Source: Terriglobia bacterium (lineage in GTDB: Bacteria > Acidobacteriota > Terriglobia > Acidiferrales > UBA7541). Taken from it: a stretch of 64,000 nt of DNA. The notes under the pieces were generated by a model that did not search any database, was not told the origin of the DNA, and saw only the letters and a program-made list of their open reading frames with translations. The position numbers were made by a program, and so were the translations under genes. Positions 29,846 to 64,000 of this stretch are shown one piece after another (the stretch's first letter is position 1; the number at the start of each line of letters is the position of its first letter). Location: the NCBI GenBank assembly GCA_020073485.1, contig JAIQFB010000002.1, positions 124,001-188,000 on the forward strand. The letters run 5' to 3'.

Positions 29846-30697
29846 TCAGCGGCTGGATCCGGCGACGTCTCCGGCTTGCGGCGCCACTTGAGGGCTGGCT
29901 TCCACGGTGCGAAGCGATGCAGGCGCGGGTACCGCGGCTCGGCTCGTGATAAAAGAACGCGCGCCGCCCCAGATGAGTTGCGTGCCCGCAAACATGGCGA
30001 TCAGGGCGATGGCCATCTTTAATTTTTGCGCGGGAACTTTTCGGGCCAGGACGCAGCCCAGCAGGACGCCGGGAATCCCGCCCTTCAGCAATTCCAGCAG
30101 GATGCCGTTGTGGATCGAGCCAAAGCTCCAGTGGAAGGCGGCCCCGATCACCGACAGCACCAGGCCGAAAACCAGGTCCGTGCCCACCACTTCCGCGGGC
30201 GTCATTTCCGAAAAATTCAGCAGCAGCACGGTTCCCAGCGCTCCGGCGCCGGCTGAGGAAAATCCGGATTCGATTCCAATCGGAACCGCGAGCCAAGGAA
30301 GCCAGCCGCTGTTCTTTTTCGCAAAGCGCGGATTCTGCAAGCGCTGGGCGAAGCTGATGCCCGACGAAGCCGCCAGCAGCAGGCCGATCAGGATCACGAC
30401 GATGGGCGTCCAGGAAGCGTTGCTCATCAGCCGCAGCAGGTAAGTGCCGATCAGCAGGCCGGGAATCGCTCCCTGCAACAGAAATTTCAAATATCGCCCG
30501 TGAAAATGTTTCCCGTACAGATAGAACGGAGCCGCGATCAATCGCAATACGCCCGTAAAGATGAAGGCCGTCCCCACCGCTGCCGCCGCCGGAAGTCCCG
30601 CGATCAGAATCAGCGCGGGAGTCGTGAAGCTGCCCCCGCCGATTCCCGTCAATCCCACAGCCAGGGCGATGAGGAATCCGATGATCGATAGCATCAT
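29846..30697 (-). CDS. TSUP (TauE/SafE) family permease in the cys operon
   Basis: A 283-aa membrane protein with about eight TM segments and the TSUP hallmark repeats (ALAVGLTGIGGGSFTTPALIL and, in the second half, GIESGFSSAGAGALGTVLLL). Family members move sulfite, sulfonates, sulfoacetate or sulfate across the inner membrane. Its ATG overlaps the cysH stop by 4 nt (ATGA), so it is translated with the sulfate-reduction genes. Sulfate import is the natural guess, with sulfite export the alternative. The C-terminal ~25 residues are Ala/Pro-rich. Confidence 0.87.
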   Translation of the reverse strand: MMLSIIGFLIALAVGLTGIGGGSFTTPALILIAGLPAAAAVGTAFIFTGVLRLIAAPFYLYGKHFHGRYLKFLLQGAIPGLLIGTYLLRLMSNASWTPIVVILIGLLLAASSGISFAQRLQNPRFAKKNSGWLPWLAVPIGIESGFSSAGAGALGTVLLLNFSEMTPAEVVGTDLVFGLVLSVIGAAFHWSFGSIHNGILLELLKGGIPGVLLGCVLARKVPAQKLKMAIALIAMFAGTQLIWGGARSFITSRAAVPAPASLRTVEASPQVAPQAGDVAGSSR

Positions 30698-31392
30698 TCC
30701 GTCCGTTCCGAAAACGTATGAATTCCGCACTCGAGTTTCTGTCCGCCCCAGCGGCCCGATCGCGGATTCTTCGGATCATCGGGGATGGCCGTGCACGGTT
30801 CGCAGCCGATGCTCAGGTAACCCTGATCGTACTGCGGCAGATAGCTCATTTGTTTTGAGCCGACGTAGCCCCACACGTCGGCCCAGGTCCAGTCGGCCAG
30901 CAGGCTCACCTTCAGTAGCGTCTTTCCGCCCGGCGTGCGGTGTTCCTCGGCCTTCTTCAGATTTTTGCGGGTGGGCGATTGCTCCCGCCGCAGTCCGGTG
31001 AACCAAACATCGTAGGGTTCGAGCGATTGCATCAGCGGCTCGACTTTTCGGAGCCGGCAGCACTCAGTGGGGTTCGTGCGGTTGAGGATCCCGAATTGCG
31101 ATTCCTGCTGCGCGACGGTTTGCTTGGGCAGCACGTTAACCAGGTTGAGCGACCATTCTTTCGCCATGCGGTCGCGGTATTCATAAGTGCCGGCGAAGTG
31201 GTATCCGGTGTCGAGAAACAACACCGGAATCTCCGGGATTTTTTTTCGCAGCAGGTCCAGCACGATCATGTCCTCGGCTTGAAAGCTGCAAGTGATACAC
31301 GCCCGCGAAGGATCGGTCGAGGCCAGCAAATATTCCAGGCCTTGCTCGGCGGAAAGCGTTTCCACGGTGCGGGAAATTTGCTCGTGATTCAT
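30694..31392 (-). CDS. cysH: Assimilatory APS reductase (CysH family, 4Fe-4S type)
   Basis: A 232-aa thioredoxin-dependent reductase that makes sulfite. The four iron-sulfur cysteines (Cys111-Cys112 in TECCRLRK, Cys197 and Cys200 in IGCEPCT) mark it as an adenylyl-sulfate reductase rather than a PAPS reductase. Cys222 in KLECGIHT is the catalytic cysteine. The substrate-binding loop is ITCSFQAEDMIVLDLL. The ATG overlaps the cysN stop by 1 nt (TGATG) with GAGGTG upstream. A TTG at 31395 is a less likely start. Confidence 0.93.
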   Translation of the reverse strand: MNHEQISRTVETLSAEQGLEYLLASTDPSRACITCSFQAEDMIVLDLLRKKIPEIPVLFLDTGYHFAGTYEYRDRMAKEWSLNLVNVLPKQTVAQQESQFGILNRTNPTECCRLRKVEPLMQSLEPYDVWFTGLRREQSPTRKNLKKAEEHRTPGGKTLLKVSLLADWTWADVWGYVGSKQMSYLPQYDQGYLSIGCEPCTAIPDDPKNPRSGRWGGQKLECGIHTFSERTE

Positions 31393-33119
31393 CAATTCAC
31401 CTCGCCGGCATCGGCCGGCCCCGCAACGATTCTGAGAGACTGCAGCGCCGCGATCGCGGGCGAAACTGCGGCCTCATCGTCCGCAGGCAAATCCATCGAC
31501 GCCAGATCAATCGTGCGAAGCGCCGCGCCCCCGCTCAGTGCCTGTTTCTCCGCGGATGAAATCGCGTTCGTCGAGTAAATCAGGACCAGGCCTGCCGATT
31601 GCGAGAGCGCGAGGAGTTCGCCTAAACGGCCGGCGGAAACCTCTTCGCCCGACACCAGCGCCACCTCGAAGCCCTGCGCGAACAGAGCTCGCTCCAGGTA
31701 CTGCGCCACGAGCGGCCTGCCTTCGACCAGCACCAGGGCGGGAGCATGACCATGCCGCCGGTACTTCTCTTCGGCGGCCACCGGCGTGTTCCAGTCAGTG
31801 TCAAGGCCTGCAGCCTCGGGAAGCGCCGCGCGAATAATGGCCGCGCCCAGCGTCGCGTTGGACAGCGGATCGATCAGAATAAAACTTCCGGTGGTGCGGT
31901 TGCGCTCGTACGGGTCGAAGAAAAGCGGCTTCGCCACTTCAAATTGAACGGCGGCGATGTCGTTCATCTTCAGTTCATACGCGGGCTCCTGCTCGAGCGT
32001 GTTCATGTTCACGCGATAGTCGATGGCGGTCGCTTTTGCCCGCGACGTGCGCACGGAATGTTTGATCAGGTACGTTCGGCCCGGCACCAGAGGCTCGGCA
32101 TCGAACCAGACCACCATGGCTTCGAGCCGGCTGGCAACGGTCGGCGGATTTTCGGGAGTAACCAGCATGTCGCCGCGGCTGAGGTCGATCTCATCTTCCA
32201 GCGTGAGCGTCACGGACATGGGAGAAAAAGCTTCCGCCGCGGTTTCGTCGTACGTGACGATCGATCGCACTCGCGACTTCTGCTGCGACGGCAAGGCCAT
32301 CACCGCATCGCCGGGACGAATCGTGCCGCTGGCCACGCGCCCTGCAAACCCGCGAAAGTCCGCGTCCGGCCGCACCACGTACTGCACCGGAAATCGCATC
32401 GCTTCCTGCATCACTTCCGAGCGGACCGGCACCGTCTCCAGATGTTCGAGAAGCGTGGGGCCCTGGTACCACAGCATGCGGTCGGTGGCGTTCACCAGGT
32501 TGCCGCCCTCCAGCGCGCTGATCGGTATGCCCACCACGTTCTCAAGATTCAGTTGCCCGGCGAGCGCCAGAAAATCGTCGTACAGGCGCCGGAAGACGTC
32601 TTCGCGATAGCCGAGCAGGTCCATCTTATTGATCGCCGCCACGATGTTTCGGATCCCCAGCAGCGAGGAGATGTACGCGTGGCGCCGCGTCTGCGCCAGC
32701 ACGCCGCGCGTCGCGTCGATCAGGATCACCGCAAGATCGGCGGTCGACGCCCCGGTGGCCATGTTGCGCGTGTACTGCTCGTGGCCGGGCGTATCCGCAA
32801 TAATGAATTTCCGGCGCGGCGTCTCGAAATACCGGTAGGCGACGTCGATGGTAATTCCCTGCTCGCGTTCGGCCCGAAGCCCATCGGTCAGCAATGAAAA
32901 ATCAATGGGACCGGAGGACCGGTTCACGCGGCTCTTGCTCACCGAAGCCAGCTGGTCTTCGTAAACGGATTTAGAATCGTGCAGCAGCCGCCCGATCAGC
33001 GTGGATTTGCCGTCGTCCACGCTGCCCGCGGTCGTGAAGCGAAGCATGTCTTTGTGCAGGTGGTGATCCAGCAGCGTGCTGAATCCGTCCTTCTGCTCGT
33101 TGGCCGCGTGAAGACTCAC
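31392..33119 (-). CDS. cysN: Sulfate adenylyltransferase subunit 1 (CysN) with degenerate CysC-like tail
   Basis: A 575-aa GTPase subunit of ATP sulfurylase. G1 is GSVDDGKS (32-39), G3 is DTPGHEQ and G4 is NKMD. The GTG start at 33119 overlaps the cysD stop (TAGTG), with GGGAGGG upstream. The open frame continues further upstream to 33461 but only antisense-like sequence shadowing cysD. Residues ~448-575 resemble an APS kinase by pattern (RRHGHAPALVLVEG, LERALFAQGFEVALVSGEEV, SAGLVLIYSTNAISSAEKQ). The P-loop expected after VLVEG is absent, so kinase activity is unlikely. Confidence 0.92.
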   Translation of the reverse strand: MSLHAANEQKDGFSTLLDHHLHKDMLRFTTAGSVDDGKSTLIGRLLHDSKSVYEDQLASVSKSRVNRSSGPIDFSLLTDGLRAEREQGITIDVAYRYFETPRRKFIIADTPGHEQYTRNMATGASTADLAVILIDATRGVLAQTRRHAYISSLLGIRNIVAAINKMDLLGYREDVFRRLYDDFLALAGQLNLENVVGIPISALEGGNLVNATDRMLWYQGPTLLEHLETVPVRSEVMQEAMRFPVQYVVRPDADFRGFAGRVASGTIRPGDAVMALPSQQKSRVRSIVTYDETAAEAFSPMSVTLTLEDEIDLSRGDMLVTPENPPTVASRLEAMVVWFDAEPLVPGRTYLIKHSVRTSRAKATAIDYRVNMNTLEQEPAYELKMNDIAAVQFEVAKPLFFDPYERNRTTGSFILIDPLSNATLGAAIIRAALPEAAGLDTDWNTPVAAEEKYRRHGHAPALVLVEGRPLVAQYLERALFAQGFEVALVSGEEVSAGRLGELLALSQSAGLVLIYSTNAISSAEKQALSGGAALRTIDLASMDLPADDEAAVSPAIAALQSLRIVAGPADAGEVN

Positions 33120-34093
33120 TAGAAGTAGCCCTCCCGCTTCTTCAATTCCATCGAGCCTTCTTCGTCGTGATCGATGACGCGGTTTTCCCGCTCCGACCGC
33201 TTGAATCCAAGGAGTTCCCGGATGATTTTCGGCAGCGTGTCCGCCTCGGACCGAATCGCGCCCGTGCACGGCATGCAGCCGAGCGACCTCATGCGGCAGG
33301 AAATGCGCTGCGATTTTTCTCCCGGCAACAAATCGCTCTGGGAATAGATCGGCACGATGGAGGCGCCGCGCAGCACCACTTCGCGCTCTCGCGCGAAGTA
33401 CAGCGGCACGATGGGAATGTTCTCCATGTGGATGTAGAGCCAGATATCCAGCTCGGTCCAATTCGACAGCGGAAACACGCGAATGCTTTCACCCTTGTTG
33501 AGGCGCGAATTGAAAATGTTCCACAGCTCCGGGCGCTGGTTCTTGGGATCCCACTGTCCCAGGGAATCGCGGAAGGAATAGATGCGCTCCTTGGCGCGCG
33601 ATTTTTCCTCGTCGCGGCGGGCCCCGCCGAAAGCGGCGTCGAATCCCCCCTCGGTCAGTGCGTCGAGCAGCGATTTCGTCTTGAGCAGGCCGCAGCATTT
33701 CTGCGTGCCGAGCGCGAAGGGGTTCGCGCCCTGGTCCAGCGCTTCCTGATTCTTGTGCACGATAAGATCCGCGCCGATTTCGCGCGTATAGGAATCGCGG
33801 AACGCGATCATCTCCGGAAATTTGTAACTGGTGTCGACGTGCAGCAGGGGAAACGGAAACTTCGCCGGAAAGAAAGCCTTCTGCGCCAGCCGCAGCATCA
33901 CCGAAGAATCCTTGCCGATGGAATAGAGCATCACCGGGCGCGCAAATTCCGCCACCGCTTCCCGCAGAATGTAGATGCTCTCCGCCTCCAGAGTTTTGAG
34001 GTGGTTGAGACGTTTGGGCGCGGCAAATTCCCCCGCGTTTTGCAGCCCTGCGGCGGCGGCTTGTTGTATTGCACCTTGAATTGCGTAGGCCAT
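33119..34093 (-). CDS. cysD: Sulfate adenylyltransferase subunit 2 (CysD)
   Basis: A 324-aa ATP-pyrophosphatase subunit of ATP sulfurylase. The PP-loop is [20 protein letters not shown], and the CysD motifs [16 protein letters not shown] and [17 protein letters not shown] are intact. The ATG at 34093 has AGGGGA 9 bp upstream. An upstream GTG at 34126 lies inside the terminator stem and is rejected. It is the first enzyme gene of the cysD-cysN-cysH-TSUP operon. Expression is predicted to depend on the upstream attenuator. Confidence 0.95.
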
Positions 34094-34109: not shown

Positions 34110-34149
34110 AAAAACAAAAAACCCACCTTCCGGGTCTTCCGGAGGTGGG
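34110..34149 (-). terminator. Attenuator terminator hairpin upstream of cysD
   Basis: Read on the minus strand, CCCACC-TCCGG (34149-34139), loop AAGAC, then CCGGA-A-GGTGGG (34133-34122) form 11 bp with one bulged A. It is followed at once by TTTTTTGTTTTT (34121-34110). This is a canonical intrinsic terminator placed 16 bp before the cysD ATG, so without antitermination it should stop transcription before the operon. The U tract is followed by the cysD ribosome binding site. Confidence 0.88.
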
Positions 34150-34228
34150 CTAGTTACTTTGCGTGCTTGAGGCTTTTAGCTAGATCAGGGCCCTCGCACT
34201 CACCCACTCGCCTGGAAGACAGGCTTCC
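34136..34228 (-). promoter_or_regulatory. Mutually exclusive antiterminator / protector RNA structures
   Basis: Minus-strand segment 2, CTTCCAGGCGAGTGGG (34218-34203, inside the leader reading frame), can pair with segment 3, CCCACCTCCGGAAG (34149-34136, the terminator 5' arm and loop). The pairs are CTTCC/GGAAG, GG/CC, G/C and GTGGG/CCCAC: 13 in all, with two bulged A and one mismatch. Segment 2 can instead pair with segment 1, GGAAG (34228-34224) or GCCTG (34224-34220), just after the Cys run. This is the 1-2-3-4 layout of trp/his-type attenuators. Relative stabilities need to be computed. Confidence 0.75.
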
Positions 34229-34284
34229 GCCGCACAACAACAACAGCAGCTACACATGGAAGTCGTCAGCGAGTGAGTACTCAT
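34180..34284 (-). CDS. Poly-cysteine leader peptide of the cys operon
   Basis: A 34-residue frame with seven Cys: residues 10-22 read MCSCCCCCAAEAC. The five-Cys run uses TGT-TGT-TGT-TGT after TGC (34234-34248), flanked by Cys at 34252-34254 and 34219-34221. It stops at TAG 34180-34182, 87 bp before cysD. The ATG at 34284 has no Shine-Dalgarno but lies just 12 bp after a candidate -10, so translation may be nearly leaderless. ATG 34257 is an alternative start (25 aa). Ribosome stalling at Cys codons when Cys-tRNA is scarce would free segment 2 to form the antiterminator. The peptide itself probably has no function. Confidence 0.82.
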   Translation of the reverse strand: MSTHSLTTSMCSCCCCCAAEACLPGEWVSARALI

Positions 34285-34296
34285 AATGACAGGCCG

Positions 34297-34325
34297 AGGA
34301 TACTCGAAAATACTCCGCCACACAA
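34297..34325 (-). promoter_or_regulatory. Candidate promoter of the cys leader
   Basis: On the minus strand, TTGTGT (34325-34320), a 17-bp spacer and TATCCT (34302-34297) form a fair sigma70-like promoter. A start 7-10 bp downstream would begin the RNA at most a few bases before the leader ATG. It lies in the 97-bp gap after the winged-helix/PD40 gene, which points the same way, so read-through from that gene cannot be excluded. Confidence 0.45.
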
Positions 34326-34381: not shown

Positions 34382-36562
34382 TTACTTAAACTGAAGCATC
34401 CAGATATTGCCCGTGGTTTCCGTATATTCGTACACCACCTGGTCGCCGCGGGGAGACGCGGCGGGATAGCGGACGAATGCGTTCGTCTTCGTATAGTGCG
34501 TAAGCTGCTTTTCGATTTTTGTTGAGCGCGAAACCGACCAGACGTTCCAGATCAGATCCTCCGCCTGCTTGGCGTAAAAAATTTTGTCGCCATCGGAGGA
34601 CCAGCTGTGCAGCCACTGCCGCCCGTGGTACGGCGTCAGCTGCGTGATCGGGCCGCCGGCGCTCGGCAAGATCCCAATGCTGTTGTCCGAACCGCGCTGC
34701 AATTCCACGGCAATGAATTTTCCATCCGGCGACCATTCCGGGAAGCCAGCCATTTCCTTCTCAAATGTAAGTTGCCTCATGTTCCCGTTGGCCATGTCCA
34801 TGATCCAAGTGTTGATCACGCCGTCGGTCTGCATATTTACGGCCAGTTGGGCGCCATCGGGGGAGAGCTCAATCCTGGAGAACCTCAGCGCATTTTTGTT
34901 GACGGTTTTTTCCTGCAACGTCTCCGTATCCACGGAGAGCAAATCCACGGTGGGCCTGATCAGAGAAGCAAAGAGGATATGGCGGCTGTCCGGGTACCAT
35001 GTCGGGGTTACCATGGGATCGTGGCCCAGGGTCAGTTGATGCAGGCTGCTTCCGTCCGGGTTCATCATCCAGATCTGCGCCGTCATGCCGGGACGGGACA
35101 GGCAGGATTCAAACGCGATGTGAGACCCGTCCGGCGAGAATGATGGCTCGGAGTTTCTGCACCCGACGCTGCTGGTGAGCTCGACGATATCGCCTGCCGG
35201 GTCGCCCGCCTTGGAAATCGGGAGCGATTCCAGTCGGCCGGTCATGCCCATAGCGGCGTAAATAAGCTTTTTTCCATCGGCGGAGAACGCCAGATTCTTG
35301 ATGTTGAACCCATTGGAATCCATGACCCGCACGGGTGGCCCAAGAGGGGCGGAAATATCCGGAGAAACGCGAACCTGAAATAATCCAAGCGTGGGCTCCA
35401 TGTTCCCGCTGGCCGCGTCGGCTCCATAAAAAATACTGTTCCCATCGGGCGAATAGACCGGATCGTAGAAGAAATACGCCAGGTCTGTCAGCTGTGCGAG
35501 CCCGGTTCCGTCCGCAGCAATGGACCACACGGCGCTCGGAGCCTGCGAGACAAATGTGATGTGCCTGGAGTCGGGAGACCAGGACGGCGCACCATGGCCT
35601 CCCGTAGGTTTGCCCGGCATGGTAATTTGCCTGGCCCCGGTACCATCCGGGTGAATCGCCCAGATTATGGAAGGCGGATAGGCTCCCATGCTGTCGGCGC
35701 CAAAGTCGTTTACGGGACTGGACTGAAAAGCGATCCACTGGCCATCCCGCGACCACGCCGGATGCGAGCCGAACTCGGTCAACCGCCGGGCCTGCCCTCC
35801 CAGGGCGGGCAGAAGCCATATCCCGCCGCGGCGGTTGGAATAGTAGGCGATGAGGCTGCCGTCGGGCGACCACGCCGGCTGTATGTTTTGCTCCCCGTCC
35901 GAGGTGAGCTGAAATTCCTTGCCACCGGGCGCAAGCTGCCGCCGGAAAATCTCAAACCCCTTGCCGCGATCCGCGCAATACGCAATTTCGGTCGCGTCGG
36001 GTGAGAAAGTCGGGAAAAACGTGAGCCCGCCAGACGTGGTTAGCTGCGTACTGGATGCAATCTGAAAAGTTTGCGGGATCGAACGCGTTCGGTAAACGAG
36101 AAAAAGCATGGTCACGGCGCTGGCGACTGCAATCAAGGCAACGACGGCGATCCCATACCGGCGCAGATGCGACTTCGTGGCTTCGACCTCTGCAAATGGA
36201 GGCTCGCCGGATGGCGGCAGGGTTGCAGCCACAGGCTTGCCGTTTTCCTCCACCCGCAAATCGGCGATGAAACGGTAACCGCGCGTGGGAACCGTCTCGA
36301 TATAGCGGGCGTCCTTGGCGTCATCTTCCAGCGCCTTGCGAAGCTGGCCGATGGCCCGGGTCAGTACGTTTTCCGTGACGTAGGCATCGCCCCAAACCCC
36401 ATCGATCAGCTCTCGCTTTTCAATCAGCCGGCCGCGGTTCTCAACCAGAAAAATCAATAGATTCAACGCCTTAGGCTCAATCGGCAGCACCTTTCCCGTC
36501 TTCAGAACCCGGAAGTTTCCCCGGTCGATTTCCACGTCGTCGAAGCGGTAAACCCGTGCCAC
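34382..36562 (-). CDS. Membrane-anchored winged-helix / TolB-type propeller regulator (CadC/ToxR-like)
   Basis: A 726-aa protein. Residues 1-~102 form an OmpR/CadC-type winged helix (VENRGRLIEKRELIDGVWGD, ENVLTRAIGQLRKAL, VPTRGYRFIADL). One TM helix lies at ~135-157 (YGIAVVALIAVASAVTMLFLVY, split around the charged edge). The outside carries about ten PD40/WD40-like blades (FSPDATEIAYCADRG, WSPDGSLIAYYSNR, YSPDGNSIFYG, ESPDG-type). It is a one-component sensor with an extracytoplasmic propeller, common in Acidobacteriota. Its targets are unknown. The gene lies directly upstream of the cys leader on the same strand. Confidence 0.88.
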   Translation of the reverse strand: MARVYRFDDVEIDRGNFRVLKTGKVLPIEPKALNLLIFLVENRGRLIEKRELIDGVWGDAYVTENVLTRAIGQLRKALEDDAKDARYIETVPTRGYRFIADLRVEENGKPVAATLPPSGEPPFAEVEATKSHLRRYGIAVVALIAVASAVTMLFLVYRTRSIPQTFQIASSTQLTTSGGLTFFPTFSPDATEIAYCADRGKGFEIFRRQLAPGGKEFQLTSDGEQNIQPAWSPDGSLIAYYSNRRGGIWLLPALGGQARRLTEFGSHPAWSRDGQWIAFQSSPVNDFGADSMGAYPPSIIWAIHPDGTGARQITMPGKPTGGHGAPSWSPDSRHITFVSQAPSAVWSIAADGTGLAQLTDLAYFFYDPVYSPDGNSIFYGADAASGNMEPTLGLFQVRVSPDISAPLGPPVRVMDSNGFNIKNLAFSADGKKLIYAAMGMTGRLESLPISKAGDPAGDIVELTSSVGCRNSEPSFSPDGSHIAFESCLSRPGMTAQIWMMNPDGSSLHQLTLGHDPMVTPTWYPDSRHILFASLIRPTVDLLSVDTETLQEKTVNKNALRFSRIELSPDGAQLAVNMQTDGVINTWIMDMANGNMRQLTFEKEMAGFPEWSPDGKFIAVELQRGSDNSIGILPSAGGPITQLTPYHGRQWLHSWSSDGDKIFYAKQAEDLIWNVWSVSRSTKIEKQLTHYTKTNAFVRYPAASPRGDQVVYEYTETTGNIWMLQFK

Positions 36563-63205: not shown

Positions 63206-64000
63206 ACGCGCACCGTATTCCCGTTGACGTTTTCTTTCTCCAGCAATTTCGCCCCGCCGTTCGTCCCGCCGTTCGTGCTTCCCTTGCCGTTGCTGTGCCA
63301 ACCGAAACGCTCGGCTGCGCGCAACAGCGACTCCTTGACCACCACGCTTTGCAGCGTCTGCCCGGTGGGGCTGAGCGATCCTTCGTTAAACGCGTTGATC
63401 AGGCGAATGTCCAGAGGGTCCATCTTGAGCAAGTGGGCGATGTCGTCCATGTGAGACTCGTAGGCGAAGCAAACTTGCGGGGCTCCGAATCCGCGCATTG
63501 CGCCGGTCATGGTCTTGTTCGTGTAGACGACGTGGGCTTCGGCATAGAGGTTGTCGATGTTGTAAGGCCCCGCGGACAGAATGCAGGCCTTGCCGAGCGT
63601 CGTTTCGCTCCAGGAGCAGTACGCGCCGCCATCGAGGATAAGGCGAATTTTCCGCGCCTGGATTCGGCCGTCCTTGGTCACGCCGGTCTTGTAATCCATG
63701 ATCAGCGGGTGGCGCGTAGTCGAGGCGATGAACTCATCCGGGCGGGTAAACACGCTCTTGACCGGGCGGCCCGATTTTTTCGAAAGCAGAGCCAGCACCG
63801 GCTCGGTGGTGATTTCGTTCTTGCCGCCGAAATTTCCACCGACGATGGTGGCCACGATGCGGATGCGGCTGATAGGGATGGCCAGGGTGCGCGCGACGTC
63901 CGCGCGGCCCAGCGTGATTCTGCCGAGCGTGGAATGAATGGTCACGCGCCCGTTGGCATCCCACATGGCGATCGTGGCATGAGGCTCCAGAGGCACGTGC
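63202..64000 (-). CDS. Molybdenum hydroxylase large subunit, N-terminal half, partial at window edge
   Basis: The frame is open at the right edge, so the true start lies outside. The visible part (>265 aa) contains VGGNFGGKNEITTEPVLALL (the Moco-binding Gly loop), FTRPDEFIASTTRHP, GAMRGFGAPQVCFAYE and a low-complexity tail (NGKGSTNGGTNGGAKLLEK) before TGA. The tail is encoded by an in-frame duplication of a 12-bp unit (ACGAACGGCGGG type). Together with the next gene it makes one molybdopterin subunit. Confidence 0.85.
   Translation of the reverse strand, partial: HVPLEPHATIAMWDANGRVTIHSTLGRITLGRADVARTLAIPISRIRIVATIVGGNFGGKNEITTEPVLALLSKKSGRPVKSVFTRPDEFIASTTRHPLIMDYKTGVTKDGRIQARKIRLILDGGAYCSWSETTLGKACILSAGPYNIDNLYAEAHVVYTNKTMTGAMRGFGAPQVCFAYESHMDDIAHLLKMDPLDIRLINAFNEGSLSPTGQTLQSVVVKESLLRAAERFGWHSNGKGSTNGGTNGGAKLLEKENVNGNTVRV

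Follow-up and report, generated by a model that had tools for sequence, protein, structure and literature searches.

The region upstream of cysD in a soil acidobacterium is very probably a transcription attenuator of the ribosome-mediated kind, with charged cysteinyl-tRNA as the signal that it senses. It was analysed within a 64,000-nucleotide stretch of DNA (the window), which is part of a 5.05 Mb genome (G000). The sequence parts of the element, their conservation and covariation, a repeated association with sulfur genes and a bias in codon choice were obtained directly. The initial annotation had read the region as a cysteine-responsive attenuator; our comparative test supported this reading and, beyond it, we found the element recurring across the phylum, predicted its leader frames to be nearly leaderless, and identified versions with threonine or branched-chain codons.

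All features of the locus are on the minus strand. Downstream of the element lie cysD, encoding sulfate adenylyltransferase subunit 2 (33119-34093; NF009214, 453.6 bits with a cut-off of 413; TIGR02039), with its ATG at 34093 (NCBIfam CysD); cysN, encoding subunit 1 (31392-33083; NF003478, 625.8 bits, cut-off 590; TIGR02034); cysH, encoding a (phospho)adenylylsulfate reductase (30694-31395; NF002537, 231.3 bits, cut-off 154; TIGR00434); and, as the last gene of the cluster, a TauE/SafE family permease (29846-30730; PF01925). The leader was placed between cysD and the end, at 34382, of a regulator-like gene (34382-36562). The C-terminus of CysN extends past the CysN family model (31392-31800); the protein does not reach the cut-off set for the bifunctional CysN/APS kinase model, and the extension is possibly a degenerate kinase domain.

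The leader ORF (34180-34284, minus; MSTHSLTTSMCSCCCCCAAEACLPGEWVSARALI*) is a 34-codon frame without a Shine-Dalgarno sequence, and most of the family's cysD loci have homologous Cys-rich frames. Translation of 34284-34180 confirmed the seven Cys codons, five of them consecutive, that had been described in it. They are codons 11, 13-17 and 22; the run of five control codons occupies 34234-34248 and the two single ones 34254-34252 and 34221-34219. The 64 kb was scanned on both strands, in 1212 overlapping windows, for short Cys-dense frames with a terminator after them; the strict setting returned this locus only. The loose setting gave one additional, unconvincing match at window position 63429 (plus), which was rejected for its dispersed Cys codons in a long frame. 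Genome-wide, a simple pattern search over all frames counted 44 runs of four Cys codons.

The 11-bp hairpin reported before cysD was confirmed as an intrinsic terminator (34149-34110, minus; -20.3 kcal/mol), a role also backed by covariation. Its stem joins 34149-34139 to 34133-34122, the 3' arm being segment 4, with one bulged A; the T tract, TTTTTTGTTTTT, follows at 34121-34110, and the whole structure lies upstream of the cysD ribosome binding site. The 5' arm and loop of the terminator are shared with segment 3 (34134-34150), the 3' side of an antiterminator identified by duplex computation, folding and covariation. Its 5' side, segment 2 (34202-34220; duplex z -4.0, with covariation), is within the leader ORF. 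The 13 pairs of the initial annotation were borne out as the core of this antiterminator, while the true pairing is longer, with 16 pairs between 34220-34202 and 34150-34134 at -24.0 kcal/mol, a value that none of 300 dinucleotide shuffles reached. A further segment able to sequester segment 2 had been proposed next to the Cys run; by minimum free energy (MFE) and partition function such a segment exists, and it is located upstream of the run at 34279-34264, over leader codons 2-7 (segment 1). In the MFE structure of the full leader without a ribosome, segments 1 and 2 form a long hairpin (34279-34264 with 34221-34218 and 34212-34201) next to the terminator. Segments 1-2-3-4 of the window leader are, as modelled, the full attenuator layout, with 1:2 as a predicted pairing.

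To represent a stalled ribosome in the folding, we removed the sequence upstream of its leading edge with the stall at Cys 11 or 13, a crude model of the geometry. Folded by transcript length, the free leader kept the 1:2 hairpin until segment 3 emerged, and with the ribosome stalled at either codon the 2:3 pairing formed once segment 3 was out. At equilibrium the terminator was more stable in every state as soon as segment 4 had been made, so the switch must be kinetic; classical attenuators likewise decide kinetically. From the layout we infer where transcription starts, that the leader is translated, that ribosomes stall on it and that read-through responds to cysteine. RNA polymerase would start a few bases upstream of the leader ATG, and a ribosome would load at or near the 5' end and translate the Cys-rich leader. 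With ample Cys-tRNA, the ribosome would reach the stop codon and 1:2 would pair behind it, as it would without any ribosome, leaving segment 3 free for segment 4 and ending transcription before cysD. With scarce Cys-tRNA, the ribosome would stall at the UGU run and stop 1:2 pairing; segment 2, about one ribosome footprint downstream, would then capture the emerging segment 3, no terminator would form, and cysD-cysN-cysH-TauE would be transcribed. In the window, segment 1 is only partly covered by a ribosome stalled at Cys 13-17, and the block of 1:2 would therefore be partly steric. The leader stop codon is downstream of segment 2, and the non-starved outcome would therefore rely on 1:2 re-forming behind the ribosome.

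Comparing the regions upstream of cysD among relatives, as had been suggested in the initial annotation, we found that homologous loci retain the Cys run together with the terminator and the two alternative pairings, with covariation. In the family sample cysD was matched in 43 of 89 genomes, and 42 cysD loci were examined. Of these, 40 have a Cys leader followed by a terminator built in the same way, with Cys patterns such as CCCLCC, CCMCC, CCTCC and CCACC, the Cys cluster 79-100 nt before the terminator and segment 2 beginning 15-41 nt after the first Cys pair. The leader-terminator (2:3) duplex fell more than one standard deviation below shuffles in 36 of the 40 loci, with a mean z of -2.3 over all 40; the four loci without a significant duplex are L005, L006, L008 and L022. 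Locus L004 has no leader directly before cysD. No cysD locus that clearly keeps the terminator and lacks Cys codons was found in the family, the weakest being L008 with CC and one more Cys. At cysD the element is carried by, among others, Granulicella sp. dw_53, Acidobacterium sp. S8 and a gp6 MAG. Outside Acidobacteriota, the upstream regions of about 45 cysD loci yielded no convincing combination of Cys leader and terminator.

The regulator-like gene ends at 34382 on the same strand as the leader, and the hairpin could merely terminate that gene, with the Cys frame as a chance ORF. We regard this as extremely unlikely. A joint rule, at least three Cys within nine codons of a short frame and then a terminator, called 35 of 41 real upstream regions; it was met by 1 of 1025 dinucleotide shuffles and by essentially no other region of the window. 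Moreover, many genomes have the element before sulfur genes, at a wide variety of loci, and a promoter-like site separates the upstream gene from the leader.

We examined both pairings in a MAFFT alignment of 36 related sequences. For the terminator, 95.7% of the cells were paired and 40 were double-changed, with 12.3 expected (0 of 500 shuffles); in slid alignments pairing dropped to 57% or less. For the antiterminator, 81% were paired and 27 double-changed, with 8.6 expected (0 of 500 shuffles), and sliding brought pairing to about 50% or less. Alignment columns 148-152 covary with both partners, for example at columns 69/148/171, where C-G-C is replaced by G-C-G, as expected of mutually exclusive alternatives. 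Shared ancestry inflates such covariation counts, hence we also compared cognate with non-cognate pairings over 72 non-redundant elements. Cognate 2:3 duplexes averaged -20.4 kcal/mol versus -16.8 for non-cognate ones, and 1:2 duplexes -31.8 versus -27.3 kcal/mol, differences that 0 of 5000 permutations reproduced in either case. Judged by this comparative evidence, the terminator and the antiterminator are mutually exclusive and both covary.

These results also bear on a mechanism in which the Cys leader would still be the sensor, with translational or Rho-dependent attenuation as the outcome: the stalled ribosome would unmask a downstream ribosome binding site or block Rho, and the hairpin would be secondary. 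There are precedents for it. Poly-Cys leaderless frames of M. smegmatis are reported to act on translation (Canestrari et al. 2020, cited in PMC9031893), and Cys leaders in Actinobacteria have been described without terminators (PMC1262725). In addition, four Acidobacteriaceae cysD loci (L131, L151, L155, L156) have a Cys leader or a Cys-rich start and no evident intrinsic terminator; they are possibly a translational or Rho-dependent variant, and such a branch may exist in the phylum. For the element studied here we consider this mechanism unlikely, given that the terminator and its T tract are conserved in the window and in nearly all family homologues, covary with a competing antiterminator, and end before the cysD ribosome binding site begins.

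Next to the leader, a sigma-70 promoter is predicted at 34297-34325 (minus), with a -35 box TTGTGT (34325-34320), a 17-nt spacer and a -10 box TATCCT (34302-34297). The -10 box ends 12 nt before the leader ATG, and the 5' UTR in the window would be about 4-7 nt long. We searched 141 leaders for sigma-70-like promoters with a -10 box ending 3-14 nt before a start codon, picking the start codon by the best promoter score and maximising the shifted control likewise. A score of at least 10 was obtained in 124 of the 141 leaders compared with 43 of 139 control windows shifted by 33 nt. The distance from the end of the -10 box to the chosen start codon was 6-14 nt in nearly all leaders, mostly 6-13 nt, and an SD-like motif was seen in 3 of the 141. 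The leader frames are thus predicted to be leaderless or nearly so.

In Firmicutes, sulfur genes are controlled by cysteine T-boxes, and a T-box or another known riboswitch might sense the tRNA or a metabolite here, with the ORF being incidental. Rfam gave no curated RNA family match to sustain this: the window had none at gathering score, the surroundings of the element none that was meaningful at E 5, and twelve related loci none apart from tRNAs. The probability of such a sensor is close to nil.

The attenuator layout resembles the trp, his, thr, leu and ilv attenuators of Enterobacteria (PMC1183508) in its end-product control codons within a leader ORF, its 1:2, 2:3 and 3:4 pairings, its intrinsic terminator and its codon bias. 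It differs from them in having cysteine as its amino acid, in a stop codon beyond segment 2, in a predicted leaderless frame, in the many copies per genome that would form a regulon, and in its phylum, Acidobacteriota. With the mycobacterial polycysteine leaderless sORFs (Canestrari et al. 2020, as cited in PMC9031893, PMC9094748 and PMC13236596), of which M. tuberculosis has six copies (PMC9094748), it shares the poly-Cys frame before sulfur and cysteine operons and the several copies per genome, the leaderless start being only a prediction here. Those sORFs are described as acting on translation, whereas the acidobacterial element has an intrinsic terminator and a covarying antiterminator. 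Translation-level regulation without an intrinsic terminator is not what we found, as the terminator is conserved and covaries. The Cys leader peptides predicted in Actinobacteria likewise have Cys codons in runs and precede cys operons and cbs, but no terminator hairpins were found for them and Rho was suggested (PMC1262725), unlike the element described here. A survey of premature terminators with predicted attenuators likewise reported intrinsic terminators upstream of metabolic genes, among them acidobacterial attenuators without assigned functions (PMC2965389). In the literature covered, poly-Cys leaders turned up for Actinobacteria only (PMC1262725, PMC9094748, PMC13236596), and nothing on cysteine attenuation in Acidobacteriota came to light. 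The class of mechanism is known; for its Cys version with intrinsic terminators in Acidobacteriota we found no description.

To look for further copies, we built a covariance model of the element (R1), which was searched without using the downstream genes. Three copies were found in G000: the cysD leader, a second, with leader MIHRSKHEVRACCCCNRTPVCGENA*, upstream of a NIR_SIR sulfite/nitrite reductase-type gene, and a third, with leader MNRDVRKTMQGCLCCSCCMCVSSGAGRLTF*, upstream of an outer-membrane beta-barrel gene. A plus-strand match in the window's own contig (C45) is the reverse of the palindromic terminator and not a second element. The model matched 76 of 95 genomes of the order (E 1 or better), 157 of 399 of the class (E 0.01) and 49 of 396 in a sample of the phylum, the weak matches being unreliable. 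As the best match in 36 genomes of other phyla reached 26.8 bits (E 2e-4), only matches at about E 1e-5 or better are reliable without inspection. Model matches at L316 and L319, with no convincing Cys leader and terminator, were discarded.

Sulfur or cysteine genes accounted for 92 of 119 genes linked to R1 matches, the 119 having been chosen by hand from the listed matches and annotated by profile on cluster representatives only. They comprise NIR_SIR reductases (42), rhodanese-type sulfurtransferases (25), siroheme synthesis (6), TauE (5), family 2A encapsulin (4), sulfonate-binding protein (3), sulfate-binding protein (2), and one each of TusE/DsrC, ATP sulfurylase, cysD, cysH and cysK. 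Cys leaders before family 2A encapsulin shell genes (L274, L276, L281, L286, L322) are followed by a gene for a cysteine desulfurase, the encapsulin's cargo, for which SufS scored above its cut-off and NF041166 just under (the protein is truncated); the Terriglobus albidus encapsulin is likewise preceded by an R1 match (L330, the same place as L286). Sulfur starvation induces a family 2A encapsulin shell in Synechococcus (PMC8049743). The element reaches further, into other classes of the phylum, which have an SCCCCCMC leader before a cysM-type cysteine synthase, a CCCCCC leader before a cysH-like gene and an MCSMCCCCCMC leader before a uroporphyrinogen methyltransferase. Taken together, the copies most likely form a dispersed cysteine/sulfur regulon, which would link cysteine shortage to the compartment of encapsulin and cysteine desulfurase. 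In soil, Acidobacteriota belong to the most abundant bacteria, and to our knowledge little is known of their metabolic regulation; the distribution of the element suggests that they sense cysteine shortage through stalled ribosomes.

The same scaffold also carries other control codons. A Thr-rich leader, MMTTFTKRITSTKSMSTTSTTTTSTILASGAWRNS*, and its relatives precede a terminator and aspartokinase in six genomes of family relatives (L217, L237, L244, L246, L250, L265), apparently a threonine attenuator. LEIVVVRLV frames were found before acetolactate synthase (ilvB) in three genomes and a Leu/Ile/Val-rich frame before dihydroxy-acid dehydratase (ilvD), at loci L211, L213, L228 and L325; these are apparently branched-chain attenuators in Acidobacteriota. 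The control codons match the downstream pathway, as an attenuator predicts, and these elements would extend ribosome-mediated attenuation for Cys, Thr and branched-chain amino acids to Acidobacteriota, with a natural case of leader codons swapped on one scaffold. Codon choice is biased as well: TGT makes up 549 of 734 leader Cys codons (75%) versus 83 of 641 (13%) in downstream genes (Fisher p 2e-126), and in the window 6 of 7 versus 3 of 24. Biased control codons aid the sensitivity of attenuators (PMC1183508).

Both the sister elements and the codon bias speak to the idea that the Cys-rich frame encodes a functional metal- or redox-binding small peptide, with the terminator being unrelated. 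Cys-rich small peptides do exist in general, and in relatives some targets are redox genes such as peroxiredoxin (L324, L327). Nevertheless, a functional peptide is very unlikely here: the leader peptide is poorly conserved among homologues beyond the Cys run, its shared SGAGRL-like tail corresponds to the segment-2 RNA and is in another reading frame in L281, L286 and L322, the scaffold bears Thr or branched-chain codons before other pathways, and the strong TGT bias concerns codons and not residues. The chance ORF, the upstream-gene terminator and the functional peptide were all rejected on the shuffle, conservation and codon controls.

A broader reading, to which we give an even chance, is that a modular cassette with a leaderless leader, swappable control codons and a shared 2-3-4 scaffold was copied before many operons, so that Cys stalling in cis, not a transcription factor, would largely run the sulfur regulon, and the Thr and branched-chain versions would derive from the same scaffold. 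In this cassette reading the regulon would span sulfate reduction, siroheme, sulfonate and sulfate uptake, sulfurtransferase, the family 2A encapsulin with its cysteine desulfurase, and outer-membrane barrels. If such a dispersed cysteine regulon can be read from sequence alone, dozens of sulfur genes would gain an annotation, outer-membrane barrels and porins among them.

Cys leaders were also observed at outer-membrane beta-barrel genes (PF25183 together with a carboxypeptidase-regulatory domain) and at Porin_5 genes (L106, L109, L113, L116, L219, L257; L112, L209). The barrels and Porin_5 proteins under Cys leaders are candidate uptake routes for sulfur compounds. Finally, Cys leaders (CCCCCC; CTCCPCCMGTCCCC) precede a 1-Cys peroxiredoxin (L324, L327) and a PF03601 (YeiH-like) membrane protein (L326, L329).
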